From a virus, in IMG/VR virus record IMGVR_UViG_3300029915_001198, positions 1 to 37,784 of that record: DNA of 37,784 bases, one strand, 5' to 3'. How positions within the stretch are numbered: position 1 is the first letter of the stretch; each line of letters begins with the position of its first letter. Below the pieces are notes generated by a model. The model was not told the DNA's origin. It saw only the letters and a list, made by a program, of their open reading frames with translations, and searched no databases. Positions 376-23,839 of the stretch are shown here, one piece after another. The position numbers were made by a program, and so were the translations under genes.

Positions 376-1539
376 ATGAAATACTTCCTCATCGCCGGAG
401 CCCGCCCCAACTTTATGAAGATCGCCCCGATTCACAGGGCGTTTGCGACCAGAAGGAACGGTCATTCGACCGAAGAGCTGCTCATTGTCCACACCGGGCA
501 GCACTACAGCAGAAACATGTCGGACGACTTCTTCCGCGATCTCGGTATTCCGGAACCAGACATCAACCTATGTGTAGGCTCCGGCTCCCACGCCGAGCAG
601 ACCGCGCGCATCATGATGGCGTTTGAGCCGGCGTGCCTGGAGCATCGTCCGGATTGGGTGATCGTCGTTGGCGACGTGAATTCGACGGTCGCCTGCGCCC
701 TCACCGCCAAGAAGCTTGGCATCCGGGTCGCCCACGTCGAAGCTGGACTGCGCTCGCGGGACATGTCCATGCCGGAAGAGATCAATCGGCTCTGTACGGA
801 TGCCATTACCGACCTTCACTTCACTACTGACGCGCAAGCCCAAGAAAACCTACTGAAGGAAGGTGTTCCCAGCGAGAAAATTCACTTTGTTGGCAACACC
901 ATGATTGATACCCTGAGCCAGCAGATCGGTCGAGCCCGCGAGGTGCCGCTCCCTGACGGGCTAATTCCGGGACAGTATGCTGTCCTGACTTTGCATCGTC
1001 CAGCCAACGTGGACTCCCCCGACCGACTGGCTCAGATCCTTGGGGCGATGAACGTCATCGCAGGCCGAATTCCAATCGTTTTTCCTGTCCACCCCCGTAC
1101 AGCGCCACGGCTAAAAGAACTCGAGATCCATCCCAGCATCCGAATCGTGGGACCGATGAGCTATCTGCCGTTCCTCGGACTCGTCGCGCGCTCCCGTATG
1201 GTTCTCACCGATAGCGGCGGCATCCAGGAGGAAACGACCGTTTTGGGCGTGCCGTGCCTCACCATGCGCCCGAACACCGAACGCCCGATCACCTGTGAAA
1301 TCGGAACCAACATCCTGGTCGGAACAGACCCGCAACGTATCCTTCAGGAAACGAATTCAATCCTCAACGGCCACACGCGTCCAAGCGCCATCCCTCAAAA
1401 GTGGGATGGCCATGCGGCCGAGCGGATCGTGGACATCCTGGTCCATCAATCGGTCGAAGAAGCTTCGCTTGTCGGCGCATTAGCCATCGGGGCAGAGCCC
1501 AAACCTGGCGGGCGATTTGACGTCATCGCACGACCTTGA
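376..1539 (+). CDS. wecB: UDP-N-acetylglucosamine 2-epimerase (non-hydrolysing)
   Basis: 387 residues, the usual length for the family. The enzyme interconverts UDP-GlcNAc and UDP-ManNAc in the cytoplasm, supplying ManNAc-type sugars for surface polysaccharides. Visible family motifs are GARPNFMKIAP (7-17), HTGQHY (39-44), VVGDVNST with Asp100, HVEAGLRS with Glu122, PEEINR (Glu134/135), LHRPANVD with His207, PVHPRT, and the uridine-diphosphate site LTDSGGIQEE (277-286) followed by RPNTERP. These match the acidic residues and histidine known to be needed in E. coli WecB. The ATG at 376 is preceded by only a weak purine stretch, but the family begins right at this methionine. It follows the glycosyltransferase fragment by 22 nt and precedes a WbaP-like transferase, consistent with one polysaccharide cluster. 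Confidence 0.95.
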   Translation: MKYFLIAGARPNFMKIAPIHRAFATRRNGHSTEELLIVHTGQHYSRNMSDDFFRDLGIPEPDINLCVGSGSHAEQTARIMMAFEPACLEHRPDWVIVVGDVNSTVACALTAKKLGIRVAHVEAGLRSRDMSMPEEINRLCTDAITDLHFTTDAQAQENLLKEGVPSEKIHFVGNTMIDTLSQQIGRAREVPLPDGLIPGQYAVLTLHRPANVDSPDRLAQILGAMNVIAGRIPIVFPVHPRTAPRLKELEIHPSIRIVGPMSYLPFLGLVARSRMVLTDSGGIQEETTVLGVPCLTMRPNTERPITCEIGTNILVGTDPQRILQETNSILNGHTRPSAIPQKWDGHAAERIVDILVHQSVEEASLVGALAIGAEPKPGGRFDVIARP

Positions 1540-1632
1540 CGTCGGTATATTTAGAGCGGATTTACATTACCGCATTCTCAATTCCATCAACAATCTGAAT
1601 CGTCTCTGGGTACGGAGGATTACCAGAATTCT

Positions 1633-3048
1633 ATGAGCGCAGCACCGGCATTGAGTCTGTCCCGAGGAGCGGGAAGTACATATTCCCTGGTGGCGGAGCT
1701 GGCCACGGGGATGGCGTTCCTGATCGCGGACGCGTTTGCCTTGTTGGCAGCGTACGCGATTACTATTGTGATCCGGGGTGAGTTTGCGAGCGCGGCGTTG
1801 TGGCCGCAGCATATCCGGTTGATCCCGTTTCTGGCCGCCATTCCGCTGCTGATTGGTCTCCTGGGCCTTTATCCTGGCGTGCTCTTGAACCCGGTGGAAG
1901 AGTTCCGGCGACTCACGATTGCGATCGCGCTGGGGATGTCGCTCGTGGTGGTGGCAACGTTCCTGGTGAAGGAGAGCAGTGCGTATTCGCGGCTGGTCTT
2001 CCTGGCGGCGGTTCCGCTAAGTATCGGGCTGGATCTGGGAGCGCGCTGGCTTGTGAGGCAGGTGTGCCCAGGCGCCGGTTGGTGGGGTATTCCGACGGTT
2101 CTGGTCGGACCGGCCGCAGAGGTGGCGGCGATGCGGCGGCTGTTTGAAGCTCATCCCGCACTGGGCATACGAATCGCGGCTGTCATAGAGGCCGAGCGAT
2201 TGAGCCAGGGCTTCGCAGCCGAAGCCCGCATCGCAAAAGGCACCATTCCATACGCCGTGATTATCGTTCCGTCCGGCGACGACCAGCACTGGTTGCGCGG
2301 CGTGGAACGTTTGGTGTGGGAGTGCAGGAAAATCGTTATTGTGCCGCCGTCTAGCGGGTTCCTGTTGCCCGGGATGCGGATCCGAGATTGCGGCGGCATG
2401 GTGGGATTGGAGGCCCAGCGCGAACTGCTGAAACATCGTTCAAGAGTCACGAAGCGAACGATGGATTTCATGCTTACGTTGCTAGGGGGTGTATGTGTCC
2501 TGCTGCCCGTCCTTTTTATCGCAGCGCTAGTGAGAATCACCTCCCGGGGGCCGGCGTTCTACGGGCACAGGCGGATTGGGGAGGGTGGCCGAACCATTCG
2601 CATCTGGAAATTCAGAACGATGGTGGAGAACGCGGACGCGAAGCTGGAGGAGTGGCTAAGAGCCGACCCTAAACTTCAAGAGGAATGGGAGACGCATCAC
2701 AAGCTTAGGGATGATCCGAGAATCACGAAGATCGGCAATTTTTTGAGACAGACCAGTCTCGACGAACTGCCACAGATTTGGAACGTCGTTCGAGGGCAGA
2801 TGAGCCTGGTAGGTCCGCGCCCGATCGTGCGGGACGAGGTTCTGTTTTATGGCGAGGAGTTCGACCTTTACCAGAAGGTGCGGCCGGGCATAACGGGACT
2901 TTGGCAGGTGTCGGGGCGCAGCGACACCACCTACGAGTCCCGGGTTGCAATGGACGTACAGTATGTCCGGAACTGGTCGGTGTGGTTGGACGTGTATTTG
3001 CTGGCCAAGACATTCCGGGTGGTGCTGAAGAAACAGGGGGCTTACTGA
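1633..3048 (+). CDS. WbaP-type undecaprenyl-phosphate sugar phosphotransferase
   Basis: 471 residues. This inner-membrane enzyme would start a repeat unit by moving a sugar-1-phosphate from a UDP-sugar to undecaprenyl phosphate. The N-terminal third has about four membrane segments (roughly 21-46, 61-82, 95-113, 120-137), followed by a soluble middle region, a fifth hydrophobic segment (282-303) and the bacterial sugar transferase domain (about 274-471). Hallmarks of that catalytic domain are KFRTM (326-330), SLDELPQIWNV (375-385), SLVGPRP (391-397) and the ending RPGITGLWQVSGRS. This multi-TM plus catalytic layout is that of WbaP/exopolysaccharide polyprenyl glycosylphosphotransferases. A GGAGG at 1614-1618 lies a somewhat long 14 nt before the ATG. 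Whether the sugar is Gal-1-P or Glc-1-P cannot be read from sequence. Confidence 0.92.
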   Translation: MSAAPALSLSRGAGSTYSLVAELATGMAFLIADAFALLAAYAITIVIRGEFASAALWPQHIRLIPFLAAIPLLIGLLGLYPGVLLNPVEEFRRLTIAIALGMSLVVVATFLVKESSAYSRLVFLAAVPLSIGLDLGARWLVRQVCPGAGWWGIPTVLVGPAAEVAAMRRLFEAHPALGIRIAAVIEAERLSQGFAAEARIAKGTIPYAVIIVPSGDDQHWLRGVERLVWECRKIVIVPPSSGFLLPGMRIRDCGGMVGLEAQRELLKHRSRVTKRTMDFMLTLLGGVCVLLPVLFIAALVRITSRGPAFYGHRRIGEGGRTIRIWKFRTMVENADAKLEEWLRADPKLQEEWETHHKLRDDPRITKIGNFLRQTSLDELPQIWNVVRGQMSLVGPRPIVRDEVLFYGEEFDLYQKVRPGITGLWQVSGRSDTTYESRVAMDVQYVRNWSVWLDVYLLAKTFRVVLKKQGAY

Positions 3049-3161
3049 GGCCCGAATCTGAGACGGAGAACCGGATCCAGACTCAGGCAGTATGTACTTG
3101 GCGTGGCGGGACGTATCCGGATTCGGCGGTGGGATTCTCCGGGGGGAGTCAAGCCTGTCGG

Positions 3162-3365
3162 CTAGAGCCCGAGGGAGCGGGCTACGGAGAGTTCCCTGGG
3201 ATCCGTGCACTGGGCGAGCGGCAGATCCTGGCTATCAAACCACGCAGGGTGCCCCTGAGTGGTGGTACACCGGCGGTCGCGACCGGTACGGATGAACCTG
3301 CCAATTAAGAAGGCGCCCCCTAATTGAATGACGAGGCACCCAAGAACGAGCAGCGTCACTTTCAT
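3162..3365 (-). CDS. Small membrane protein A, paralogue of the 4285-4554 gene
   Basis: 67 residues starting MKVTLLVLGCLVIQL: one N-terminal hydrophobic segment (about residues 3-22), then a basic stretch RFIRTGRDRR and a polar tail. The ATG is preceded on the minus strand by GGAGGGAAC with good Shine-Dalgarno spacing. The first ~30 residues align with the protein encoded at 4285-4554 (MKLTLILLGVLFIQA), including the MK(V/L)TL start and the basic GR.R motif after the TM. The C-terminal tails do not align. Paralogy in the same orientation, both with a Shine-Dalgarno site and a matching upstream block, argues that this is a real gene. No known family is recognised; function unknown, inner-membrane location predicted. 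Confidence 0.55.
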   Translation of the reverse strand: MKVTLLVLGCLVIQLGGAFLIGRFIRTGRDRRCTTTQGHPAWFDSQDLPLAQCTDPRELSVARSLGL

Positions 3366-3465
3366 TGACAGTTCCCTCCAGCGTCTTCGGGCCGTTGTCT
3401 GCCGTGGAGGACATTCCAACGTGACGTATCGGCCCCAATGGCGAATTCTTTAGAACCTCTGTCGT

Positions 3466-3483
3466 AGAATCGTGCGCGATTCT
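3466..3483. repeat. Inverted repeat in the leader of small membrane gene A
   Basis: AGAATCG - TGCG - CGATTCT is a perfect 7-bp stem with a 4-nt loop. It lies between the candidate promoter (3634-3664, minus) and the start codon (3365) of small membrane gene A. It could be an operator or an mRNA hairpin. No T tract follows, so a terminator is unlikely. Confidence 0.35.
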
Positions 3484-3633
3484 GTCAGAAAATCTCTGAT
3501 GATGTGCTTCTCGACCAATAACCATGGGCCTTGGGAGGCACTTCGCCACACGCTCCAACTTTTTGACTTGGGGCCCTGTTTGGTTCCGGCTACGCCGGGT
3601 TAGGGCAGTTTCTGGAAAACGCGGCGCTGGTTA

Positions 3634-3664
3634 ATTAGAGGTGCGACCTTGAGAAGAGTCTCAA
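3634..3664 (-). promoter_or_regulatory. Candidate promoter of small membrane gene A
   Basis: On the minus strand TTGAGA (+ coordinates 3659-3664) and TCTAAT (3634-3639) are separated by 19 nt. The same two hexamers with the same 19-nt spacing occur upstream of the paralogous gene at 4672-4702. A further similar stretch (TTTTCCAGAAACTGCC here, TTTTCCAAAGCTGTCC there) lies just downstream in both. The leader to the ATG at 3365 would be about 270 nt. The call rests on this double conservation; the 19-nt spacer is longer than a typical sigma-70 spacer. Confidence 0.45.
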
Positions 3665-3817
3665 GGTAATTCGCGCCTGGGGCTAAGTTGAATGGGCGGA
3701 GACGGGCTGCCGGGGGAGCGGTTCGGAATGCGGGCTTCGCGCGGCGCTGGGCTGGACCTCGTCGGGGTCTCTGCGGAGCTGAGCTTGAGAAGACCTAGCC
3801 GACAGGTGATTCCCTGA

Positions 3818-4150
3818 ATGAGCGACACAGCTGACCGAAATACGGGTGGACAGCCGCCAGACCTTTTCGTGAGTCCCCTAAAACTGCCGGCGAACGGGTG
3901 GATCTCCGTGCCCGTTAAGCAGATCGAGGAAAACGAGCTGAGTCGTTCATCGACCAGCTTCTCCAACTTCTACCTCTACCGACAATCGGCCAAGGTGCGG
4001 CGGGACAAGCTGCGGCCACTGCATGCACTGGGTCTCGGGATTATTGCGTGCTTTCTGTTCGCCATCCTGGTCATGGTCGGCGTATTACTGATGGCCTACC
4101 GCGCAGTGTTTTGGTCAGATCTGGAAAAACCGATAGACTCTTCCAAATAG
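3818..4150 (+). CDS. Small single-TM protein of unknown function
   Basis: 110 residues. The first ~65 are polar and Pro/Ser-rich, followed by a basic patch (KVRRDKLRPL) and one strong hydrophobic segment at about residues 71-95 (LGLGIIACFLFAILVMVGVL), then a short polar tail. The basic residues before the TM favour a cytoplasmic N terminus. AGGTGA lies about 9 nt before the ATG. It is divergent from small membrane gene A and convergent with gene B, so both membrane-protein types sit in one little locus. I do not recognise a family. The absence of any other plausible gene over this stretch and the clean TM give moderate support. Confidence 0.45.
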   Translation: MSDTADRNTGGQPPDLFVSPLKLPANGWISVPVKQIEENELSRSSTSFSNFYLYRQSAKVRRDKLRPLHALGLGIIACFLFAILVMVGVLLMAYRAVFWSDLEKPIDSSK

Positions 4151-4284
4151 AACAAGAACGATAGCGTTGGTAGAGAAGGCGGCCATAAGGATTCCTTGGC
4201 CTCGGGATGGGCGGACGTGGGAGAAGGCTCAAAAAGTAGTGGAACCAGTCGCCGAGGCACCCCGATTAGCAGGCTGGCGCTTTG

Positions 4285-4554
4285 TCACGCAGTGAGTGGT
4301 GCCGTAGTTGAGCCGGCGGACGACTTAGAAGCTCGGCCGGACTGTGCTTCGAGTTCGCGCGCCATGGCCGCCAGGCCGTTCGTGGCTTGCGCCGAGTCGA
4401 TCAAAGAGTGCGAGGGAGAGGGAGACCAGCGATCCGGTTCAGTCAGAGAGCCCGTTTTGCGGGGGCCACGTCCCGCATGGATGCACTTGGCGATCAGGAG
4501 AGTCAGCGCCGCCTGAATGAACAGCACGCCAAGCAGGATGAGCGTTAGTTTCAT
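4285..4554 (-). CDS. Small membrane protein B, paralogue of the 3162-3365 gene
   Basis: 89 residues beginning MKLTLILLGVLFIQA: an N-terminal hydrophobic segment (about 3-22), the basic motif CIHAGRGPRK, then a Ser/Ala-rich polar tail rich in low-complexity residues. The start is set by GAGGAG seven nt before the ATG on the minus strand. The first ~30 residues align with the protein at 3162-3365. An in-frame extension upstream of this methionine lacks the conservation and overlaps the Shine-Dalgarno site, so it was dropped. It could be a signal-anchored exported protein. No family recognised. Confidence 0.55.
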   Translation of the reverse strand: MKLTLILLGVLFIQAALTLLIAKCIHAGRGPRKTGSLTEPDRWSPSPSHSLIDSAQATNGLAAMARELEAQSGRASKSSAGSTTAPLTA

Positions 4555-4671
4555 GGAATGTCTCCTCGGTCGCATCGGAACCGGCGGCACCGTCGCCTTG
4601 CGGCCCCAGTAGTCTTATCGGACAGCTTTGGAAAATCTTTAGAGCCAGACCGGAGAACTCGGCACTCGTTA

Positions 4672-4702
4672 ATTAGAGCGGTGGCCAGGGGAAAAGTCTC
4701 AA
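4672..4702 (-). promoter_or_regulatory. Candidate promoter of small membrane gene B
   Basis: On the minus strand TTGAGA (+ 4697-4702) and TCTAAT (4672-4677) are 19 nt apart, as in the block upstream of the paralogue (3634-3664). The ATTAG/TTAATTAG core and flanking GTCTCAAG are shared. The distance to the ATG at 4554 is about 115 nt. Confidence 0.45.
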
Positions 4703-4738
4703 GAATACCAACGTGCTTAGCGCGGAATCATTCCTCAG

Positions 4739-4802
4739 CGTAGGGCGGACCCCGAGGTGGGGCGGCTCGCCAGAGCCTGGCGGGGTCTCCAGACCCCGCC
4801 AG
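4739..4802. repeat. GTAGGG-type palindromic intergenic repeat, copy 1
   Basis: A GTAGGGCGGACCCC head is followed by a perfect 12-bp inverted repeat with a 2-nt centre at 4777-4802 (CTGGCGGGGTCT / AGACCCCGCCAG). A related unit (GTAGGGTGGCCCCC plus palindrome) occurs at 5851-5893. The arrangement is REP-like. It lies upstream of the mazEF pair but 150 nt before its promoter region. Confidence 0.5.
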
Positions 4803-4955
4803 CGCGCGACGCCGCCGGCGCTTCTGGTTCGAACGGCCCCCATCCAGCACCGCGCGCAACAGCCATTTTCCGCCTGGATTCGTCCTTGAAACCAAGGTAG
4901 GGCCGAGACACGGTCCCCCTGGGAACGCCAATCTCCAGATAGGCGCGAGCAATCT

Positions 4956-4976
4956 ATACGTGTAGAATACGTGTAG
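4956..4976 (+). promoter_or_regulatory. Direct-repeat operator and promoter region of the mazEF pair
   Basis: ATACGTGTAG occurs twice in tandem (4956-4965 and 4967-4976), 11 bp apart, about one helical turn, ending 9 nt before the antitoxin ATG. TAGAAT (4963-4968) inside it would serve as a -10 hexamer. Ribbon-helix-helix antitoxins typically bind such helically phased repeats, so this is the likely autoregulatory operator. The -35 region is poor. Confidence 0.5.
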
Positions 4977-4985
4977 GTTCATACC

Positions 4986-5228
4986 ATGAATCGAAAGCTC
5001 ACCATCACCGTCAGCGAGGCAGTCTACGAAGGCCTCCACCGGACCATCGGGCGGCGCCACATCAGCCAGTTCATAGACAAACTTGCGCGTCCGCATGTTG
5101 TTCTGCAGGACATCGAGGCCTCGTACCGTGACATGGCCGCCGATCTGGCGCGCGAAAAAGAGGCGACGGAGTGGTCTGAGGGCTTGATTGCCGACGCTTC
5201 CCCAATAGAACCTCATGTTACGCGGTGA
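4986..5228 (+). CDS. mazE: MazE-like ribbon-helix-helix antitoxin
   Basis: 80 residues. The N terminus [18 protein letters not shown] is a beta strand followed by a helix, as in ribbon-helix-helix DNA-binding antitoxins, and [17 protein letters not shown] forms the second helix. The C-terminal part is acidic/helical and would bind and block the toxin. It overlaps the downstream MazF-type toxin gene by 14 nt, the usual translational coupling of antitoxin then toxin. The upstream tandem ATACGTGTAG repeats are the likely operator through which the antitoxin, or the complex, represses the pair. Family assignment rests on the fold pattern and partner. Confidence 0.8.
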
Positions 5229-5544
5229 GGTGTGGTGGGTCGATTTCGATCCTTCTCTCGGCGGCGAAATCCAAAAAACGCGCCCCGCCGTCATCGTCAG
5301 TAATGACGCGTCCAACCGTAATCTGAACCGCGTTCAGGTGGTTCCAATCACGAGCAATGTGGCCCGCGTCTACCCGTGTGAAGCCTTGATCGAATTCAAT
5401 GGCGAACCCCGCAAAGCGATGGCCGACCAGATCGCAACCGTCAGCAAGCAGCGGCTCAAATCCAGGCTAGCGACCTTCGCGCAAGGCGACATCCGCGCCG
5501 TGGAACAAGCTATCAGAATTCAACTCGGTCTCTCGCCTGCGTAA
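5215..5544 (+). CDS. mazF: MazF/PemK-type endoribonuclease toxin
   Basis: 109 residues, full length for the family. The start [18 protein letters not shown], then [23 protein letters not shown] and [12 protein letters not shown] are the standard MazF landmarks. The Glu-x-x-Lys-x-Arg-Pro segment near residues 18-24 and the later Thr/Ser of the PITSN strand form the catalytic surface in this family. MazF enzymes cut single-stranded RNA at short sequences and stop growth when the antitoxin is degraded. The ATG lies inside the end of mazE. Its target motif cannot be predicted here. It stands among polysaccharide genes and repeats, a common accessory-region location. Confidence 0.92.
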
Positions 5545-5850
5545 CCAGGATCCCCTGGTCGCGCTCTCGCGCTGACTGCCAACTCTTGAGAAGGACGTCA
5601 CACGGGCGATCACACGATCTCGCGAAGAGATGCTCCTCGCTTTTCAATAAGTTGCTGCCTGGCGCGGGTAACCATGCCTTGCCGGGCGGTATTCTTCGCC
5701 TGAAGCGGGCAGGCCAAGGGTTCTTCCCCGGACGGCGGGACGAGATTTGAGCGGATTTTTTCGCTAGCCGGTTTACCACTCGGAAGTGGTTCTGTCGAAA
5801 CAACTTAACCAATAACAATTCGTTTCAAACGAACCCAAAACGAACCCGAA
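5545..5850. other. Intergenic region, no gene seen; contains one 15-bp palindrome
   Basis: No frame here has a recognisable product or a convincing start. The only structure noted is TTCGTTTCAAACGAA at 5819-5833, a perfect palindrome around a central C, followed by two AACGAACCC units. Confidence 0.4.
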
Positions 5851-5893
5851 GTAGGGTGGCCCCCCAGGTCTGCGGCCGACCCCCCGGTCGGCC
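5851..5893. repeat. GTAGGG-type palindromic intergenic repeat, copy 2
   Basis: GTAGGGTGGCCCCC is followed by an 8-bp perfect hairpin GGCCGACC/GGTCGGCC at 5874-5893 with a CCCC loop. It shares the head sequence and the palindromic tail design of the element at 4739-4802. It abuts the truncated end of the gmd remnant. Confidence 0.5.
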
Positions 5894-5940
5894 TCTTGAT
5901 TGGTTTGTCCGAAGGAGCGGAACCGGGGGCCGCGCATGCC

Positions 5941-6180
5941 GGACTGGATTGGCGAGAGCACGTGGAGATCGACCCGCGCTACTTCCGGCCGGCGGAGGTG
6001 GAAGCGCTGTGCGCGGATGCTTCCAAGGCGCGGAGGAGGCTCGGATGGGAGCCGGCGGTGACGTTCCACGAGCTGGTGGGCAACATGGTGGACTCGGACC
6101 TTGAAGAAACCGCGCGGCAAATGAGAGGTGGGACCGAAGCGCTGCGGATTCCTGTGGATGCGGCGGAGCGGAACGCGTGA
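5941..6180 (+). pseudogene. gmd: GDP-mannose 4,6-dehydratase, 3' remnant
   Basis: About 80 codons ending at TGA 6178-6180. GLDWREHVEIDPRYFRP, then EVEALCADASKARRRLGWEP and FHELVGNMVDSDL match the last ~65 residues of Gmd, where these segments close the substrate domain. The remaining ~270 residues of the enzyme, with the NAD-binding Rossmann fold and the catalytic Tyr-Lys, are missing. Upstream of 5941 the frame runs into a palindromic repeat. The fragment lies directly before the GDP-fucose synthase gene, the normal gmd-fcl order, so an intact operon was probably broken at its 5' side. A functional dehydratase would have to be encoded elsewhere for GDP-fucose to be made. Confidence 0.8.
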
Positions 6181-6200
6181 ATGCGCCTGTGGCGCGGCGT

Positions 6201-6350
6201 GGTGGGGCAGGTGTGGTGGGGCAGGTAGGCGTGGTGGGGCAGGCTTCAGCCTGCAGACCGGCTTCAGCCGGTCTCTCCGGCGAGTCTTGTGGGGCTTCAG
6301 CCCCGCTCCGTTCGTGGGGCAGTTGCTATTGGCCCCGCGGGGCAACTGGG
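6201..6350. repeat. Cluster of small hairpins with TTCA loops
   Basis: Three consecutive hairpins have different stems but the same TTCA loop: GCAGGC/GCCTGC (6239-6254), GACCGGC/GCCGGTC (6256-6273) and GGGGC/GCCCC (6291-6304). They are preceded by three copies of GTGGGGCAG-like sequence (from 6201). They are followed by a longer imperfect inverted repeat with CAGTTGC/GCAACTG arms (about 6320-6348). The cluster fills the gap between the gmd remnant and fcl. Confidence 0.6.
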
Positions 6351-6381
6351 CGCGTGATTTTCGAGGGAACCGTTGGAACTA

Positions 6382-7323
6382 ATGACACTAACGAATAAGC
6401 GGATTACGGTAACCGGCGGCGCGGGGTTTCTAGGAAGCCGTCTGGTTGCGCGGCTGCGGCACACAGGCTGCCGGGATATTTCCGTGCCGGTCTATCCGGA
6501 ATACGACCTGACGCGGGCCGAGTCGATCGGGCGCCTGTTCGTCGAGCAGAGGCCCGAAGTCCTGATCCATCTGGCGGCCGTGGTGGGCGGCATCGGCGCC
6601 AATAGCGCGAACCCAGGCCGGTTCTTCTATGAGAACGCGGTCATGGGGATCCAACTGATCGAAGCCGCGCGGCGCCACGGAGTGGAGAAGACCGTGGTGC
6701 TGGGCACGATCTGCGCGTATCCGAAACTCACGCCCGTGCCGTTTCGCGAGGAATACCTGTGGAACGGCTATCCCGAGGAGACGAACGCGCCGTACGGGAT
6801 CGCCAAGAAGGCGCTCCTGGTGCAGTGCCAGGCCTACCGGCAACAGTACGGCATGAACGCGATCTACCTGCTGCCCGTGAATCTGTATGGGCCGGGGGAC
6901 AACTTCCACGAGGAGTCGTCGCACGTGATTCCGGCGCTGATCCGGAAGTGCGTGGAAGCCGTCAAAGACGGGCGCGAGGAGATTGTGCTGTGGGGCGACG
7001 GGTCGCCGACGCGGGAGTTTCTGTACGTCGAAGACGCGGCGGAAGGAATCGCTCTGGCGACGGAGCGATACGACAAAGCGGAGCCGGTGAACCTGGGCTG
7101 CGGAGTGGAAATCGCGATTCGCGATGTCGCTTTGAAAATCGCAAGCATGACCGGATTCACGGGCCGCATCACGTGGGATACGACGATGCCCAACGGCCAG
7201 CCGCGGCGCTGCCTGGATGTGAGCAGGGCTGAGCGGGAGTTTGGCTTCCGGGCGGCGACCGCTTTGGGGGATGGACTGCGAATGACGATCGAGTGGTACC
7301 GGGCCGCCACGGAGATCGAGTGA
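6382..7323 (+). CDS. fcl: GDP-L-fucose synthase (GDP-4-keto-6-deoxymannose 3,5-epimerase/reductase)
   Basis: 313 residues from the ATG. An in-frame TTG at 6373, with GAGGGA 4 nt before it, is an alternative start that adds three residues. The enzyme epimerises and reduces GDP-4-keto-6-deoxymannose to GDP-L-fucose with NADPH. It is an extended short-chain dehydrogenase: Rossmann motif TGGAGFLG at residues 11-18, HLAAVVGGI, the active-site strand GTICAYP, the YxxxK pair in APYGIAKKA, then [17 protein letters not shown] and [12 protein letters not shown]. In E. coli the active-site strand carries Ser then Cys; here the Ser position is Thr and the Cys is kept. Its normal partner gmd is present only as a remnant just upstream. 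Confidence 0.93.
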
Positions 7324-8466: not shown

Positions 8467-9435
8467 TCAGACTAGCTTCACCGGGATGAACAACACCGGG
8501 TTCTTCTTCGCCATGTCCACCACATGCGCGTAGCGCGCGGTCATCCGGGGATTTGCGTGGCCGAGCAACTCTTGGACCGCCCGCAGGTCGCCAGTGTGGA
8601 GGTAGCCCAAGGTAGCGGCCGTGTGCCGCAGCGCATGGTTCGAGATCCCTGGCCGCTTCAGGCCTGCCTTCCGCAAATAGCGGACGACGATCGCGCGAAT
8701 GCGCGTGCGTGTCAGGCGATGACGCGGGCCGTCGATCGTGCTGAAAAGTGGCGTGCCGTCCTTATCGCGCGCCGTTTCACCGCCCAGCGCCACGTACTCC
8801 TCCATGCGGGCTCGTGTGTCCGGCCGGAGGTAGACAAGCCGGTCGCGGGTCTTGCCGCGCACCATCAGCGCGAAGTGTTCGCCCTTATCGACAAGGTCCT
8901 CGGTATTGGCGCGCTGCACTTCGACGGTGCGCAGACCGTGCAGAGTCATCATGTCGATCATGAGGAGATCGCGCAGCTCGCGCACCTTCTCCGGACCGGT
9001 CGCGCGCTCAGGATCGGGCAGCACTGCCAGGAACCTAGTCAGTTCCGAATCGGAGAGGTACTTGAAATCCTCGATGGCCTGACGGATGCGCGGAGACTTT
9101 ACGCCAGCCGCCGGGTTATCGGTCCGCAGACCGGCGTTGCGAGCCGCTTCATAGAAACATCGCACGATCACTAGCTTCCAGCGAATGGTGGCCGGGCTGT
9201 ACCCCGCTTCGATCAGAGCCTGGCGATAGTGCTTGATGTCCGCGACGGTGACGGTGGCAGGATCAATACCCTTTTCGTGGCACCATGCGGCCCACAGTCC
9301 GACTGTGCTGCGGTAGTTGCAGATGGTAGCTTCAGAGGCGTCGCCGTTGGCCACGTCGACGCGCAGGAAATCATGAAAGGCGGCGTCCAGCCGGGAGAGT
9401 GCCTGGGGCGGCCGTATGGGGATGAGTGCATTCAT
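8467..9435 (-). CDS. Tyrosine recombinase, third of a tandem triplet by transcription order
   Basis: 322 residues. XerC/D-like integrase: N-terminal SAM-like core-binding domain (about 16-105) and catalytic domain (about 125-322). The full catalytic set is visible: Arg169 (LHGLRTVEV), Lys195 (GKTRDR), His267 and Arg270 (HALRHT), His293 (ELLGHANP) and the nucleophile Tyr302 (ARYAHVV). AAGGA lies about 10 nt before the ATG. Its 5' end overlaps the previous recombinase by 65 nt. It is a clear paralogue of the two neighbours, most like the 10474-11460 copy by eye. It would cut and rejoin short specific DNA sites; its target is unknown, but a direct repeat lies right after its stop. Confidence 0.93.
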   Translation of the reverse strand: MNALIPIRPPQALSRLDAAFHDFLRVDVANGDASEATICNYRSTVGLWAAWCHEKGIDPATVTVADIKHYRQALIEAGYSPATIRWKLVIVRCFYEAARNAGLRTDNPAAGVKSPRIRQAIEDFKYLSDSELTRFLAVLPDPERATGPEKVRELRDLLMIDMMTLHGLRTVEVQRANTEDLVDKGEHFALMVRGKTRDRLVYLRPDTRARMEEYVALGGETARDKDGTPLFSTIDGPRHRLTRTRIRAIVVRYLRKAGLKRPGISNHALRHTAATLGYLHTGDLRAVQELLGHANPRMTARYAHVVDMAKKNPVLFIPVKLV

Positions 9436-10432
9436 TAATAGATCGTCCTTGTACCGGGATGAACAAAGCCGGGTTGCGCGCCGGCATGTCTACGACATGT
9501 GCATAGCGTGAGGTCATGCGCGGATCGGAGTGGCCGAGGAGTTCTTGGACGGCGCGCAGATCGCCGGTATGCAGGTAGCCGAGAGTGGCTGCGGTGTGTC
9601 GCAAGGCGTGGTCGGAGATGCCGGGGCGTTTCAGGCTGGCTAGGCGTAGGTAGTGATCCGTGTGCATGCGGATCATACGCCGGCTCATCCGCCGACCGCC
9701 GCCCCGGCCCATGGAGGGGAACAGAGGTGTTCCCGCTTCGTCCGATGGGATCGCGCACCGAAGAGCAAGATACTCCTCCAGGCGTTTGGCGGTATCCGGC
9801 CTCAGGTAGGCCATGCGGTCACGGGTCTTGCCCCGCACCAGGAGGGTCCAGCTGCCGTCTTTCTCGGTGAGATCCTCGACGCTCGCGCGATGCACTTCGA
9901 TGGTGCGAAGCGCTTGCAACGCCATCATGGCAACCATTAGCAGGTTGCGTAGTCGGCAGACCTTCTCGCGCCCGTCAGCGTCATCCGGATTCGGTATGGC
10001 GGCGAGCAGCCGGCGAAGTTCGTCGTCGGTGAAGTACTTGAACTCCTCGGTGGCCTGGCGCACACGTGGCGGGCGAATGCCGGCGGCCGGATTGTCGGAG
10101 CGCAGACCGGCGTTGCGAGCCGCTTCATAGAACCGCCGCACAACGGACAGACGCAGGCGGATCGTGACGGGCTTGTAGCCGGCCTCGTGCAGCGACTGGC
10201 GGAAGAGTTTGATATGAAGTGGTGTCGCCAAGGCTGGGTCGCAGTTGTCAGAGGCGCACCAAGCCACCCACTGCGCCACACCTCTGCGGTAGCTGCAAAT
10301 GGTCTCGGTCGAAGCATCCCCGTTGGCCACGTCGACGCGCAGAAACTCGGCGAAGGCCGCGTCCAGCTCCGCGCGCGTCGGCCTGGGACGGGTGGTCGTT
10401 TCTAGAATCCGTGTTGTCAGAAGCTCAGTCAT
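9371..10432 (-). CDS. Tyrosine recombinase, middle copy of the triplet
   Basis: 353 residues, longer than its neighbours because the frame continues ~27 residues past the shared FIPV ending into the start of the next gene. This is a C-terminal tail with no counterpart in the other two. Catalytic residues Arg176, Lys202, His275, Arg278, His301 and Tyr310 are all present. The core-binding domain occupies about 23-115. Compared with the flanking copies it is the most divergent, for example GRGGGRRMSRRMIR in the variable loop near 242-255 and DHALRH instead of NHALRH. The ATG lies 41 nt after the stop of the upstream copy and overlaps the stop of a five-codon mini-ORF. Confidence 0.92.
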   Translation of the reverse strand: MTELLTTRILETTTRPRPTRAELDAAFAEFLRVDVANGDASTETICSYRRGVAQWVAWCASDNCDPALATPLHIKLFRQSLHEAGYKPVTIRLRLSVVRRFYEAARNAGLRSDNPAAGIRPPRVRQATEEFKYFTDDELRRLLAAIPNPDDADGREKVCRLRNLLMVAMMALQALRTIEVHRASVEDLTEKDGSWTLLVRGKTRDRMAYLRPDTAKRLEEYLALRCAIPSDEAGTPLFPSMGRGGGRRMSRRMIRMHTDHYLRLASLKRPGISDHALRHTAATLGYLHTGDLRAVQELLGHSDPRMTSRYAHVVDMPARNPALFIPVQGRSINECTHPHTAAPGTLPAGRRLS

Positions 10433-10473
10433 GTCGCATTCATGGACCCTTCTTCGAGGGGAAGAGTCAAGTT

Positions 10474-11460
10474 CTAGTCGCCGCCGCCGATCACGCTCCC
10501 GGGGATGAACAGTGCGGGGTTGCGTTTGGCCATGTCGACAACGTGGGCGTAGCGCGCGGTCATGCGCGGGTCGGCATGGCCGAGGAGCTCCTGGACGGCG
10601 CGTAGATCGCCGGTGTGCAGATAGCCCAGCGTGGCCGCGGTGTGGCGCAGCGCATGGTTGGAAATGCCTGGGCGCTTCAGGCCAGAGGCGCGCAGATACT
10701 TGTCGGTGTGGATGCGGATGGTGCGACGGCTCAGCCGGACCACACCGCCGTGATATCCGACAGTGAGAAACAGCGGAGTGCCCAGCTTGTCGGGCGCTGC
10801 CTGGGTGCGGAGATCTATGTACTCCCTCAAGTAGCGGGCTGTGTCCGGCCGCAGGTAGACGATCCGGTCGCGGGTCTTCCCGCGCACGACCAGCGTGAGA
10901 TGCTCTCTCTGCTGCAGTAGATCCTCGACGTTGGCACGATGAACCTCGATGGTCCGCAGGGCGTGCAACGCCATCAGGCTGATCATGAGGAGATTGCGCA
11001 AAGTGCGGACTTTCTCCATGCCAGTCGCCTGTGCTGGATCGGGGATGGCGGCGAGCAGCCGGGTCAGTTCCTCATCGGAGAGGTATTTGAAATCCTCTGT
11101 GGCGTTGCGGACGCGCGGGGACTTCACGTCGACAGCCGGGTTGTCGGGGCGCAGACCGGCGTTGCGGGCAGCTTCGTAGAAGCGGCGCACGATGGACAGC
11201 TTCCATTTGACGGTGACGGGGTTGTAGCGATTGTCGATCAGCGCCTGGCGGTAACCCTTGATATGTATCGCTGTCACGGTGGCGGGATCGAAGCCTTGCT
11301 CCACGCACCAAGTTAGCCAGAGTTCAACCTCGCTGCGGTAGCTGCGGATGGTGTCGCGGGAAGCATCGCCGCTGGCTACGTCAACGCGCAGGAAGTCGGA
11401 GAAAGCAGCGTCGAGCTCGGTTGCGCGTCGCGACGGGCGACAAGTCACGAGAGAAGTCAT
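10474..11460 (-). CDS. Tyrosine recombinase, first copy of the triplet
   Basis: 328 residues from MTSLVTCRPSRR, chosen because AAGGA lies 6 nt before this ATG; an upstream in-frame ATG at 11514 would add 18 residues without homology. Catalytic residues, numbered from this start, are Arg169, Lys195, His269, Arg272, His295 and Tyr304. The core-binding domain spans about 15-105. The catalytic core from HALRHTAATLGYL through the ELLGH box is nearly identical in all three copies. It is divergent from the DUF3489 gene, with about 200 nt between them containing ACTCGAACGAGT (11607-11618), a possible operator. Confidence 0.93.
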   Translation of the reverse strand: MTSLVTCRPSRRATELDAAFSDFLRVDVASGDASRDTIRSYRSEVELWLTWCVEQGFDPATVTAIHIKGYRQALIDNRYNPVTVKWKLSIVRRFYEAARNAGLRPDNPAVDVKSPRVRNATEDFKYLSDEELTRLLAAIPDPAQATGMEKVRTLRNLLMISLMALHALRTIEVHRANVEDLLQQREHLTLVVRGKTRDRIVYLRPDTARYLREYIDLRTQAAPDKLGTPLFLTVGYHGGVVRLSRRTIRIHTDKYLRASGLKRPGISNHALRHTAATLGYLHTGDLRAVQELLGHADPRMTARYAHVVDMAKRNPALFIPGSVIGGGD

Positions 11461-11668
11461 TGAGAATCCTTGTTGGTCATAGCGTTGAGCAGCGGTGGCG
11501 GCCATCTGCGACACCGCTAAAAGGAAGCAGGACAGCGCGGCTATGGGGCCCCGCCCTGACGCCGGGTTTTCTGTGCCGGATTATTCAGGAACGACTTGCT
11601 GAACCGACTCGAACGAGTGATGAATCGTGGTGCGCAGGAACGAACCTGATCGCACAAAGGAACATCAC

Positions 11669-19463: not shown

Positions 19464-20353
19464 CCGTGATTCACGCCCCGTGCTGTGGTGGCGAGCAAGT
19501 TGCCCACAGTCTGGACGGTGCCTTGGCCGACCTGGACCGCGGCGCCGATCTGAGAGAGCGATCCGGCAAGGTCGGATCCGAAAAGCGTCCGGATCCCGGC
19601 CTGCCCGATGCCACTGGTCAGTAGGCGCGAAATGGTTCCGACCGGATCATGGGCAATCCCGGTCTTCAGGCTCGAGACCGTCATCGAAACTTGCGCGAGG
19701 ACGGTTGCCGCTGCGGTCGCATCTTTTTGGATCAGCTGCACCTGCTGAATCGCCTTGGTGAGCGTCGATGCCGCAACCTGGGGAGGAATCTTGGCGGCAG
19801 CGAGTGCGGGTGTCAGACTGCCCAGTTGCGAGGCTTTTACCGGGGGAACGACGCCCGATTTGGCGGTCGCGATGTCCGGCGGCGTAATCAATGTCGCACC
19901 CTGCTTGCCCAGGAGATTGCTCCAGGTCGATGAAACATAGCCGCGCGAGCCGGTGCTGCCATCGTCCGGGCCGTAGTAGCTGAGCCGCAACGTGAACTCG
20001 ATCTTGAGCGGCGTTCCTTTGAACGTCATCGTCCGCTGTTCATCGGTGATCGCGAGCACACACCAGGGTCCCCAGTTCTCACCACGACCGGTTGTGAGCG
20101 TCTGCGGCTTCCCCTTTTGGGCGTAGGTGCGCAGAATATCCACCTGGTGGATCCCGCCCTGAAACGTAGGCAGGATCACGCCGCGCAGTTCGATTTCATC
20201 GCGGCCCACGCCGACGAATTGAAGCGAGGGCCGGTGCGCGATCCGGTTGAGTTCTGCCCAGCGGTATTCCACATTGCGGCGCAATTCCTGATACGCGGCA
20301 GTACCGATCGAGAACTGGAAGTTCCCGAGTTGCATCATGATGTCGGTGGCCAT
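19460..20353 (-). CDS. U: Phage P2 gpU-like tail protein with long C-terminal extension
   Basis: 297 residues. The first ~130 show the gpU family: MMQLGNFQFSIGTAAYQEL, RWAELNRI, RPSLQFVG, GRDEIELRG and a strand-rich core including MTFKGTPLKIEFTLRLSYYG. P2 gpU is only about 160 residues; the remaining ~150 residues here are Ala/Thr/Val/Gln-rich helical sequence without clear homology, a family extension seen in some phages. U works at the end of tail assembly in P2. It overlaps the tape-measure gene by one nt and gpX by four. Confidence 0.85.
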   Translation of the reverse strand: MATDIMMQLGNFQFSIGTAAYQELRRNVEYRWAELNRIAHRPSLQFVGVGRDEIELRGVILPTFQGGIHQVDILRTYAQKGKPQTLTTGRGENWGPWCVLAITDEQRTMTFKGTPLKIEFTLRLSYYGPDDGSTGSRGYVSSTWSNLLGKQGATLITPPDIATAKSGVVPPVKASQLGSLTPALAAAKIPPQVAASTLTKAIQQVQLIQKDATAAATVLAQVSMTVSSLKTGIAHDPVGTISRLLTSGIGQAGIRTLFGSDLAGSLSQIGAAVQVGQGTVQTVGNLLATTARGVNHG

Positions 20354-22815
20354 CAGTCGTGCATTCCTCCGCGCCGGCGCGCTTCCGCGTCGCGCACGGC
20401 GCGCTCCAGCTCAGAGCGCACATGCAAAGCAACGGCGCGCGGTTCTGGGACGCCGTGGATGGTGATTGGCGCATGAATCGTGATCACGGTGCTGTTTCCC
20501 AGACCCTGCCGGAAGCCGCGCGGAAGCGGGACAATGCCCTCCGTGCCGGCGTCGCCCACCTCGACGAGGGTCGGCTTCGTGGCGATGCCACCCTTCGCCA
20601 TCTTCTTCGGCTGCCCGATCTCGATCAGGCCGTCGAGCCCGGTGTGGAGCGGCGTTACCGGAGTGGCCGGAATAGCATGGCCACCAGGGAGTTGCGCTCC
20701 CTCGAGAGCTGCGCCAGGAGACGGCGCCACGCCGTGGTTCAGGACAAGGTGCGTGCCGGACCAGCGCTTCCACCGCTCATCGAGCGCAGCCTGGTTCTCC
20801 TTCATCTGGTGGTACGCAATCGCACCACCCGTGGCGGCGCCCAGGAGTCCGATCCCCAGCAAGGGCGCCAGCGTGGCCATGAGCCCGGCCTGGGCCGTCT
20901 CCGCCGTGCCGGCTGCCGTGGCCAATTCCAGCTCAGCATCGCCCGCAAGCCCGAGCGCTGTGGCCAGCCGGCCCAGGAGCGGGATGCGCGTTAAGAGGCC
21001 CGCTTTCGACGCCGCGCCGGCCGTCGCTTCCTCGCCTTCCGCAACAGCCAGGCCCTCGGTGGCGACCGCTGCCTCGCCGGTTGCGACGGTCTGTGCGCCA
21101 AGTTGGATCGTCGTCTCCAAACTGCGCAGCTTCCACAGCAGTGCCAGTTCCTTCATCTTTAGAAACGGCGTCAGGATCGTCGCCATCGCATAGCCGATGA
21201 TGGTAATCGCACCGCCAAGACCCAGCGCAGCCACGGTCGCTCCGCCAATCCACTTCGCCGCAGTCGGATGTTCGTCAAAGAAGGCGCCGAGCTTCGCGCA
21301 CACGCCTTCCAGTTTTTCAAGCACGGCCGTGGCTGCCGGCATCATCGCGATGCCAATCGGGTTGAAGATCATCCCGATGTTCTTGACCGCCCTCTCCCAT
21401 TGCTTTTGTGGAGAATTCTCTAACTTTCGATACTCCTCTCGGACGCGTCCAGTGCTGCCGGCGAGCGCCTCCTGTGCTTGAACAAGTTCCCCGGTCGCGG
21501 CGGCGTGCGACAGGTAGAATGCCGCATCGGCGCCGCGCCGGGTGAAGGCCTTGGTCAGGGCATCCCGGTTGCGCTCAAGGCCGCCCATCCGGTTCAAGCG
21601 AGCGTTCATGGAGAGGATCGTGGCTTCGAAATCCAGGTTGCCCTTCGCGTCGTGAACCAGCTGAAAGCCGAGTTCCTTGGAAGCCTTGGTCAAATTGCGC
21701 AGCACCGCACTCATCTGCTGCCCAGCGCCACCGGCCTCCATGCCGTAGCGGGTGAGCGCACCGATTGCGGCCCCGGTCTGTTCGAAAGTGACACGCGCCA
21801 TGCTGGCCTGCGGCAACGCCTTCGCGAGGCCGGAGCCCAGGCCGCCGATATCCTCAATGGCGAAGTTCTGCTGCATCGCCGCCGCCAGGTCGCCGATGCG
21901 CGAAAATTTCTGCTGGGTCGAGCCCACCATCTGGAGCCCGACAGTGTTGTAAATGCTCGCGATGGCCTTGGCCGTCTCCGCCGCGTCCTGCTGCGTGACT
22001 TCCGAGACCATGTGCACGGTCTTCGAAGCGATCAACGCTTCATCCGCCTGCAGGCCTTCGCGGTTGAGCGTGCCCTGGATGGCGAGCATTTCCGGCATCG
22101 TGGCCGAGCTGTTGTGCACGAAAGCTCGCGTTTCCCGGATGACGTCGCCGATCTGTTTCTTGTCGCCGCGCAGGACGAAGCCCAATCGAATCTTGGCATC
22201 CTCCGATTCGCTCGCCTTGTCGAAAACGCGTTTCACCGCCGCGCCCAGGATGCCGACTTCCACCATGGCGGCCCGCCATTGCGCGCGGTTGGCCTGGTTC
22301 TTTTGGAGCGCCGCGCTCGCCCCTTCGTAGCGCTTCATGGCCGCGCCCAAATGATCGAGCGAGGCTTCCACGTGCTGATTAGCAGCACGGAACTTCTCGG
22401 CCGCGGCGGAGGCCTCGCTGTAATCCGTCCGGGCCTTGGTCAGGCTGACGCTGGTGCGGTCCAGGCTCAGTCGGGCGCGCAGCACCGCCTCATCGGCACG
22501 CGCAAGCTGGGCGGCCAGCTTCTCGTCAGCGCCGCCGGCTGCAGTGATCTTCTCTTTGACCTTCGCGAAGGATGCCTCCGCCTTGGCGAGCGTCCCGCTC
22601 TGTTTCTCATACCGCGCGGTAAGCGTTTCTACGGACTCACCCAGGCGCAGGCTTGTTGCGTCGAGCCGCTTCATCTCCTGCGAACGCGCCGCCAGGTCCT
22701 TCAGCGTGTCGCCGATCTTCTTGAGACCAGACGTGGTTTTGCCGAAGACAGCGCCGACGGTCGAGTCCATCAGCGCACCGATTTTGACAACGACACTGGC
22801 GTTGGGCGTTGGCAT
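20353..22815 (-). CDS. T: Phage tail tape measure protein
   Basis: 820 residues. Its length sets tail length in tailed phages. The N-terminal ~200 residues are long helices/coiled coil (DTLKDLAARSQEMKRLD, TARYEKQSGTLAKAEASF). The central part carries the TP901-type tape-measure core (GSGLAKALPQASM, TGAAIGALTRYGMEAGGAG, RGADAAFYL). Hydrophobic segments lie at about 520-555 and 640-670, and the C-terminal KGGIATKPTLVEVGDAG then EGIVPLPRGF is typical of these proteins. The ATG overlaps by one nt with the stop of the frameshifted E' reading frame, exactly as expected for the G-T/E-T arrangement. It is followed by U. Confidence 0.95.
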   Translation of the reverse strand: MPTPNASVVVKIGALMDSTVGAVFGKTTSGLKKIGDTLKDLAARSQEMKRLDATSLRLGESVETLTARYEKQSGTLAKAEASFAKVKEKITAAGGADEKLAAQLARADEAVLRARLSLDRTSVSLTKARTDYSEASAAAEKFRAANQHVEASLDHLGAAMKRYEGASAALQKNQANRAQWRAAMVEVGILGAAVKRVFDKASESEDAKIRLGFVLRGDKKQIGDVIRETRAFVHNSSATMPEMLAIQGTLNREGLQADEALIASKTVHMVSEVTQQDAAETAKAIASIYNTVGLQMVGSTQQKFSRIGDLAAAMQQNFAIEDIGGLGSGLAKALPQASMARVTFEQTGAAIGALTRYGMEAGGAGQQMSAVLRNLTKASKELGFQLVHDAKGNLDFEATILSMNARLNRMGGLERNRDALTKAFTRRGADAAFYLSHAAATGELVQAQEALAGSTGRVREEYRKLENSPQKQWERAVKNIGMIFNPIGIAMMPAATAVLEKLEGVCAKLGAFFDEHPTAAKWIGGATVAALGLGGAITIIGYAMATILTPFLKMKELALLWKLRSLETTIQLGAQTVATGEAAVATEGLAVAEGEEATAGAASKAGLLTRIPLLGRLATALGLAGDAELELATAAGTAETAQAGLMATLAPLLGIGLLGAATGGAIAYHQMKENQAALDERWKRWSGTHLVLNHGVAPSPGAALEGAQLPGGHAIPATPVTPLHTGLDGLIEIGQPKKMAKGGIATKPTLVEVGDAGTEGIVPLPRGFRQGLGNSTVITIHAPITIHGVPEPRAVALHVRSELERAVRDAEARRRGGMHD

Positions 22816-23215
22816 CAGCTTTGGGGAGTCAGCGTTTCGCGGAGAGATTGCGCGGCTTCACACCAGTCGCGGAAGTCCTCGAGCGACAGCTCGAGAAGAT
22901 CAGGGAGAGACCAGCCGGTCACATGCGCCAGGAAGACTACTGCTTCGCGGAGTTCCGCAGCGCCGGGGAGAAAAAACGCTCAAGTACCGCCTGCAGGCGC
23001 GCATAATCGGCGGCATCGAGTTCTTCGATTTCAGCGGGCGTCAAACTCGCGAGGTTCGCCACCAGCCGGACCTCCTGCTCAGCCGTGCTGCCCGCCACTT
23101 TCTGGGCGGCGAGGGTGTCTTTGACCTTCGGCCGGCGCAAAGTGATCTCTTGAATCAGCTGCGCGCCGGAAGTGATTGGGAACTCGAGTTTGATTGTGAT
23201 TTCAGTTTGCTGCAT
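22815..23215 (-). CDS. E+E': Frameshifted tail assembly chaperone gpE+E' (-1)
   Basis: Reading E for 82 codons up to T TTT TTC and stepping back one base joins the 0 frame to an open -1 frame of 51 more residues, ending in TGA at 22815-22817. The total is about 133 residues, close to P2 gpE+E' (142). The extension, including VTGWSLPDLLELSLEDFRDW then CEAAQSLRE, is the recognisable gpE' tryptophan-containing domain and has no start codon of its own. The same design, with slippery sequence T TTT TTG, is known in P2 and related tailed phages. The frameshift itself is inferred from sequence. Confidence 0.85.
22937..23215 (-). CDS. E: Tail assembly chaperone, short form (gpE)
   Basis: 92 residues: TEITIKLEFPITSGAQLIQE, TLRRPKVKDTLAAQKV, RLVANLASLTPAEIEELDAADY and a C-terminal FFSPALRN. 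This matches the P2 gpE / Mu gp41-like tail-tube chaperone family. It binds the tape measure before tail assembly and is not expected in the virion. The gene sits between tail tube FII and tape measure T. It is followed in the -1 frame by a second conserved segment, E', so this 0-frame product is one of two. An intrinsic terminator lies just upstream. Confidence 0.85.
   Translation of the reverse strand: MQQTEITIKLEFPITSGAQLIQEITLRRPKVKDTLAAQKVAGSTAEQEVRLVANLASLTPAEIEELDAADYARLQAVLERFFSPALRNSAKQ
22970..22976 (-). other. Programmed -1 frameshift slippery site
   Basis: T TTT TTC in E reading phase (minus strand; 0-frame codons CGT TTT TTC). It lies at the end of E, about 33 nt before its 0-frame stop. 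Slippage yields the E' segment that finishes one nt into the tape-measure start. Confidence 0.85.
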
Positions 23216-23226
23216 GGAATCCTGCT

Positions 23227-23257
23227 AAAAAAGCGGGGCGGCTCGCAACACCGCCCC
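23227..23257 (-). terminator. Intrinsic terminator between tail tube (FII) and chaperone (E)
   Basis: On the minus strand GGGGCGG ... CCGCCCC forms a 7-bp stem with a 9-nt loop, followed by GC and TTTTTT, a standard Rho-independent shape. It lies after the FII stop and 12 nt before the E start, so it probably lets only some transcripts reach E, T, U, X and D. Confidence 0.75.
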
Positions 23258-23332
23258 ATCTCCAAGGAAAGCGAAAGTAGTTTGCTCCGGGAATCCCGTC
23301 CGGACCGGAACTGCCGTGGCTGCAGAAATGGC

Positions 23333-23839
23333 TTAGATGCCCAGCGCCGCGCGCTGACTGGCCAGTTGATCGACGCCTTTGATGATGCGTTTCATGTTGA
23401 CCACATCGATCTCGATCACGTCTGTGCCGTTGACGGTGAGCCGGTAATAAGTCACCGCGATGGACGCCTTGAGCGTGGCCTGATCGCCAGCCTTCCACGT
23501 GCCGGGATCCAGCTCCTTGATCCGGCCGCCGATCGTGGCCACGATCGCTTGAGCATCCTCGCCCTGGCGTTGCACGGCGCCGCGGAAGCTGAATTGCGTC
23601 TCCGCGCTGGTGGTAATACCCCACAGCGCCATCACGGCGGCGTTGTATTCAGCCAGCGTGAAGGAGCACTCGAGCTTCTCCGTGCCGGTGATCACTTCGA
23701 CCGGCGTGTCCATCCCGCCGGCGCGGTACTCCTCCGTCTTCGAAGTCACCTTCGGCAGGTTGAGTTCGGGCGCCAGGCCCACATAGCCTTTGCCATCGGC
23801 GAAGACGGCGAAGTTCTGCAGACGTTGCGGATAAGGCAT
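23333..23839 (-). CDS. FII: Major tail tube protein (P2 FII-like)
   Basis: 168 residues, the size of P2 FII (172). It builds the inner tube of the contractile tail. PYPQRLQNFAVFADGKGYVG, then LPKVTSKTEEYRAGGMDTPV and the C-terminal MKRIIKGVDQLASQRAALGI match the family. The ATG overlaps by one nt the stop of the sheath gene (23839), so both are co-translated. It should be made in many copies per tail, fitting its place before the terminator at 23227-23257. Confidence 0.94.
   Translation of the reverse strand: MPYPQRLQNFAVFADGKGYVGLAPELNLPKVTSKTEEYRAGGMDTPVEVITGTEKLECSFTLAEYNAAVMALWGITTSAETQFSFRGAVQRQGEDAQAIVATIGGRIKELDPGTWKAGDQATLKASIAVTYYRLTVNGTDVIEIDVVNMKRIIKGVDQLASQRAALGI

Follow-up and report, generated by a model that had tools for sequence, protein, structure and literature searches.

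Does the tail chaperone gene E of this virus encode a single protein, or is a second, longer product made from it by a programmed -1 frameshift, as an earlier note on this DNA had proposed? The window analysed here is a 37,784-base IMG/VR virus record. According to open reading frames and profile matches, its minus strand carries, in order, a tail sheath gene, a tail tube gene, gene E, a tape-measure gene and U-like and D-like genes, an arrangement that matches the F-E-T-U-D order of P2. The product of gene E belongs to the Phage_TAC_7 family (80.3 bits against PF10109, cut-off 25), and the location of the gene between the tube (PF04985) and the tape-measure genes is that of a P2-type E/E+E' cassette (Table 1). 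With high confidence we identify the locus as a frameshift cassette for the tail chaperones E and E+E', set in a contractile tail module of the P2-like kind. What the analysis shows directly is the sequence itself, how well it is conserved, selection specific to the frame, homology and a Shine-Dalgarno-like signal above a synonymous null. The occurrence of slippage, its rate, the role of the stimulator and the functions of the proteins are what we infer from these sequence data.

Table 1. Features of the tail chaperone locus, in the order of transcription.
Feature	Positions	Strand	Evidence or remark
Tail tube gene	23333-23839	-	PF04985
Gene E (tail assembly chaperone; 92 aa when read in frame 0)	22937-23215	-	ORF; PF10109 Phage_TAC_7, E = 1e-22; lies between tube and tape-measure genes
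Shine-Dalgarno-like AGGCGG, candidate upstream stimulator	22987-22992	-	Ends 10 nt before the heptamer; anti-SD pairing
Slippery heptamer T TTT TTC, read CGT TTT TTC in E	22970-22976	-	Sequence; kept in the window and 24/24 close loci; inside the 14-nt invariant block GTTTTTTCTCCCCG
E' extension, 51 codons + TGA	22815-22970	-	Open -1 frame; pN/pS 0.40; distant-E' profile 8e-11
GTG (V of VTGW) within E', possible start	22920-22922	-	Non-conserved
Tape-measure protein (gene T), likely client of E and E+E'	20353-22815	-	PF10145, 1.6e-16; phrog_28, 4e-42

Close to its end, gene E reads ...CTG CAG GCG GTA CTT GAG CGT TTT TTC TCC.... The plus-strand letters GAAAAAA at 22970-22976 thus correspond to T TTT TTC on the minus strand, in the phase of E itself, and the in-frame heptamer that had been claimed there is present. 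It is of the X XXY YYZ type, and the -1 frame is open beyond the E stop. No other in-phase T TTT TTN was found in the ten tail-region genes tested, in which TTT makes up 19 of 111 Phe codons (17%) and CGT 12 of 148 Arg codons. Despite this low use of TTT, the TTT TTC pair is unchanged in 14/14 aligned relatives. The preceding codon has T as its last base throughout these 14, including L022, where Arg is replaced by Ser (AGT) and the T is retained; a 14-nt block at this place does not vary at all in the alignment. Aligning homologues had been suggested as a check on the frameshift; heptamer and open -1 frame are both kept in every close relative, that is in 24/24 viral-contig loci, one of which (L011) lies on a contig that ends before the E' stop.

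Read from 22970, the -1 frame encodes LPGAAELREAVVFLAHVTGWSLPDLLELSLEDFRDWCEAAQSLRETLTPQS and stops at a TGA (22817-22815); the tape-measure ATG begins with the last base of this stop, its A. The overlap described in the earlier note is therefore real and amounts to this one base. The predicted E+E' protein has 82 + 51 = 133 aa, in agreement with the ~133 residues proposed previously, and its predicted E/E' junction peptide lies around ERFFLPGAAELR. Downstream of the E stop, the E' frame has a pN/pS of 0.40, compared with 0.97 and 2.43 for the two alternative frames and 0.15 for E itself. The E' frame also has the least variation at second codon positions (8/37 vs 24 and 28), and the remaining two frames are interrupted by stops in 14/14 relatives. 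Purifying selection acts on E', and this is found together with conservation of the heptamer. A custom profile made from the E' domains of other, distant phages matched E' at 8.1e-11 in a search of 889 window ORFs, the next best value being 0.011, and so establishes homology to the E' of other P2-like phages. A match to the C-terminal portion of phrog_166 had a value of 0.007. Against PF06528 (Phage_P2_GpE), E' alone scored 15.1 bits (E=0.016), which is under the Pfam gathering cut-off of 23; we therefore do not file it in that family and call it a homologous E' by the custom profile only. Profiles were needed because tblastn, run with the E' sequence on its own against the phage record collection, gave no match. 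Two types of E' C-terminus, CEAAQSLRETLTPQS and SESAESVYKSLIPQS, occur among the close relatives (window 22818-22860, minus strand), and in L018/L019 the E' stop comes two codons earlier. These differences suggest recombination or relaxed constraint at the extreme end of E'.

GC-rich DNA yields many long spurious ORFs, and many are listed in this window, so that the -1 frame might be one of them and the heptamer an accident of codon choice. We consider this hardly credible: the heptamer is synonymously invariant, and frame-specific purifying selection together with homology to the E' of other phages refutes such an accident at the sequence level. It is just as improbable that E' is a small gene of its own, translated from a GTG or by ribosomes re-initiating beyond the E stop. 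The earlier note erred in denying the -1 frame a start codon of its own, since a GTG is present at 22922-22920, and the E' segment is annotated as a separate gene in some records (Valp1, WO phage). However, this codon is GTA, GCG or CTG in L007, L010, L013, L020, L023 and L024, and its use as a start is therefore unlikely. Moreover, the alignment to the distant-E' profile begins at E' residue 8, upstream of the GTG (residue 17), and a separate gene leaves the invariant T TTT TTC unexplained. A -1 frameshift from E into E' is thus the interpretation that the sequence data support.

The wider family was surveyed with 82 distinct distant E genes from viral contigs, named phages and 398 sampled genomes of one phylum. 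Reference genomes yielded only three relatives. The profile for the collection scan was built from 7 closer E proteins, 13 distant ones having proved too diverse when aligned. As a positive control, the same search recovered P2 with TTTTTTG at its annotated site, the heptamer that the earlier note had given for this phage. Candidate sites in the 82 genes were TTTTTTG (35), TTTTTTA (12), TTTTTTC (7), GGGTTTT (5), TTTTTTT (4) and five other heptamers found once each, and 14 genes had no standard heptamer; T TTT TTN accordingly occurs in 58 (35 G, 12 A, 7 C and 4 T). Counting loci without de-duplication, 76 that have a site carry the E' domain in the -1 frame. Of the 14 without a standard heptamer, five again place E' in the -1 frame and seven in the +1/-2 frame, and two gave no E' match (one of them at a contig end). 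An in-frame fusion of E' to E, which had been named as an observation that would speak against frameshifting, was looked for in the distant loci and never seen among relatives whose E' frame could be called. The five loci with a -1 E' and no X XXY YYZ heptamer are L046, L103, L109, L053 and L089; CTT TTT ACC near the end of E in L103 and L109, and TCT TTT TCG in L046, are possible non-canonical shift sites. In several prophages (L105, L128, L142, L145, L148 and L149) a single E ORF contains two tandem TAC_7 domains.

The TTC ending of the heptamer had been presented as a variant. It is indeed what this window carries, but it is nothing special: it occurs in 7/82 distinct distant E genes and has published precedents. 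T7C slippery sites have been predicted in tail assembly genes of Xanthomonas/Stenotrophomonas P2-like prophages (PMC3931495), and T TTT TTC in those of the D3112-like phage PaMx73 (PMC4378225). These are predictions for the same TTC-type site in other hosts and with other E sequences.

Upstream of the heptamer, the Shine-Dalgarno-like AGGCGG would pair with the 16S 3' end at -6.6 kcal/mol; among the relatives, L023 and L024 have AGGAGG and L018/L019 have AGAGG. For 10 distinct close sequences the mean anti-SD pairing energy was -7.5 kcal/mol, vs -4.0 +/- 0.8 for synonymous recodings, none of which (0/500) reached it. The same comparison for 63 distant loci gave -5.4 vs -3.5 +/- 0.24 kcal/mol (0/500), with no excess at 60 or 90 nt upstream. 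With 49 representatives below 60% identity and stricter codon tables, the values were -5.57 vs -3.76 +/- 0.30 (0/1000), and no clear excess was present at 12-20 nt. What moves is the average: 23 of the 49 lie at or below -6 kcal/mol, where 10 would be expected. Judged from these sequences, amino acids and codon usage do not account for the full strength of the anti-SD element 4-11 nt upstream, either here or family-wide. A signal that merely follows from conserved amino acids is argued against by the synonymous-codon null, the clustering at 60% identity and the position controls. By base-pairing with 16S rRNA, the conserved Shine-Dalgarno-like sequence probably makes the shift more frequent. 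That an internal element of this kind, 4-11 nt before the heptamer, stimulates E/E' frameshifting in P2-like phages generally is a proposition to which we give even chances. We found no description of such an element for the E/E' operon in the literature, and it is the sole part of the cassette in this window that might be new. Downstream RNA structure was considered as a stimulator and rejected, as the 90 nt after the heptamer fold no better than shuffles (z = -0.06). P2 and KS5/KS14/KL3 likewise have no unusual downstream RNA structure (PMC3091744).

A run of six T could also act during transcription: if RNA polymerase added or dropped a U there, mixed mRNAs would give both E and E+E'. The homopolymer at the site, which grows to eight consecutive T in one distant relative, a WO phage, is compatible with this. 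We nevertheless regard it as very unlikely, if somewhat less so than the two alternatives above. The run is just six T and never longer across the 24 close loci, several relatives have GGGTTTT or AAATTTT, so that the phasing of the heptamer is kept and the run length is not, and an upstream Shine-Dalgarno-like element suits ribosomes rather than RNA polymerase. In P2, frameshifting was reported to be translational (Christie et al. 2002, as cited in PMC3931495).

In the translational mechanism that we propose, ribosomes on E would reach CGT TTT TTC with tRNA-Phe in both the P and A sites, and in a minority both tRNAs would move back by one base onto TTT TTT. Reading would then go on in the -1 frame to the TGA that overlaps the tape-measure start, giving E (92 aa) in excess and fewer copies of E+E' (133 aa). 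The most efficient -1 motifs in E. coli allow cognate re-pairing in the A site, ZZN to ZZZ (PMC4066793), and a change from UUC to UUU, both on tRNA-Phe, would agree with that rule. On the model of lambda G/GT, the chaperone portion E would coat the tape measure and the E' portion would recruit the tail tube protein; E should bind the tape measure, and E+E' should bridge it to the tube protein.

P2 is the closest parallel. Both systems have the order tube, E, E', tape measure, a TAC_7 chaperone, a -1 shift (predicted here) at a T6 heptamer near the end of E, an E' frame that extends to the tape-measure start, and no downstream hairpin. They differ in the heptamer (TTTTTTG in P2, TTTTTTC here), in the length of E' (57 codons in P2, 51 here) and in the stop/start overlap, which is deeper in P2 and one base here. 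Lambda G/GT and the HK97-type systems share the same genetic logic; these are siphophages, and we use them for functional analogy and claim no sequence membership. In them the short chaperone is in excess and the long fusion in the minority (PMC5009743). Shifting of 6-7% was measured in an HK97-like cluster (PMC3711429), and P2-type efficiency is reported to be 2- to 3-fold higher than that of the lambda/HK97 type (PMC5009743).

Three further regions of the window attracted attention. A strong terminator-like hairpin on the minus strand (GGGGCGG...CCGCCCC followed by T6, 23226-23258) separates the tube gene from E and is retained by 14/14 aligned relatives; it could lower expression of E and the tape measure relative to sheath and tube. 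Past the tail fibre end of the module are three tandem tyrosine recombinase genes (8467-11514, minus strand), which we take to be reminiscent of recombinase-in-trio elements. The left flank (376-7323, plus strand) has non-structural genes, among them one for an epimerase-like protein, and is possibly host DNA beside a prophage end.

In a sister group drawn from viral contigs and prophages (L163-L284, in most of which E ends near 1250, L098-L102 and L105), E' sits in the +1/-2 frame, and an invariant TTT CGN marks where the E domain ends. Across four subgroups TTT CGN was present in 118/118 matched loci, a count for which the match patterns demanded a Phe-Arg pair; TTT represents 8-20% of Phe codons there, in codon tables that contain some spurious ORFs. 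Downstream, pN/pS in the +1 frame was 0.18 (34 sequences), 0.45 (50) and 0.80 (16) by subgroup, and the frame is under purifying selection in two of these three. L183 has TTC ATG in place of TTT CGN, and no matching E' was found in it. One subgroup carries TCC/TCT TTT CGA, which is near the published +1 site UCC_UUU_CGU (PMC3498833). Since phage Mu is called the only known natural -2 case (PMC3498833), a +1 shift at TTT C is likelier than a -2 shift, and the sequences of the sister group make +1 programmed frameshifting likely. This group seems to produce the same short and long proteins through a +1/-2 shift at TTT CGN. The related named record OQ658366.1 has no fusion product annotated.

The recoding predicted at this locus is of a known type, cleanly displayed and well conserved; the phage group itself is seen here only in IMG/VR contigs. 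Ordinary gene callers miss its E', and the true long product would have 133 aa. Taken together, the candidate Shine-Dalgarno-like stimulator and the TTT CGN sister group suggest that these phages retain the short and long forms of the chaperone and swap the recoding signal.
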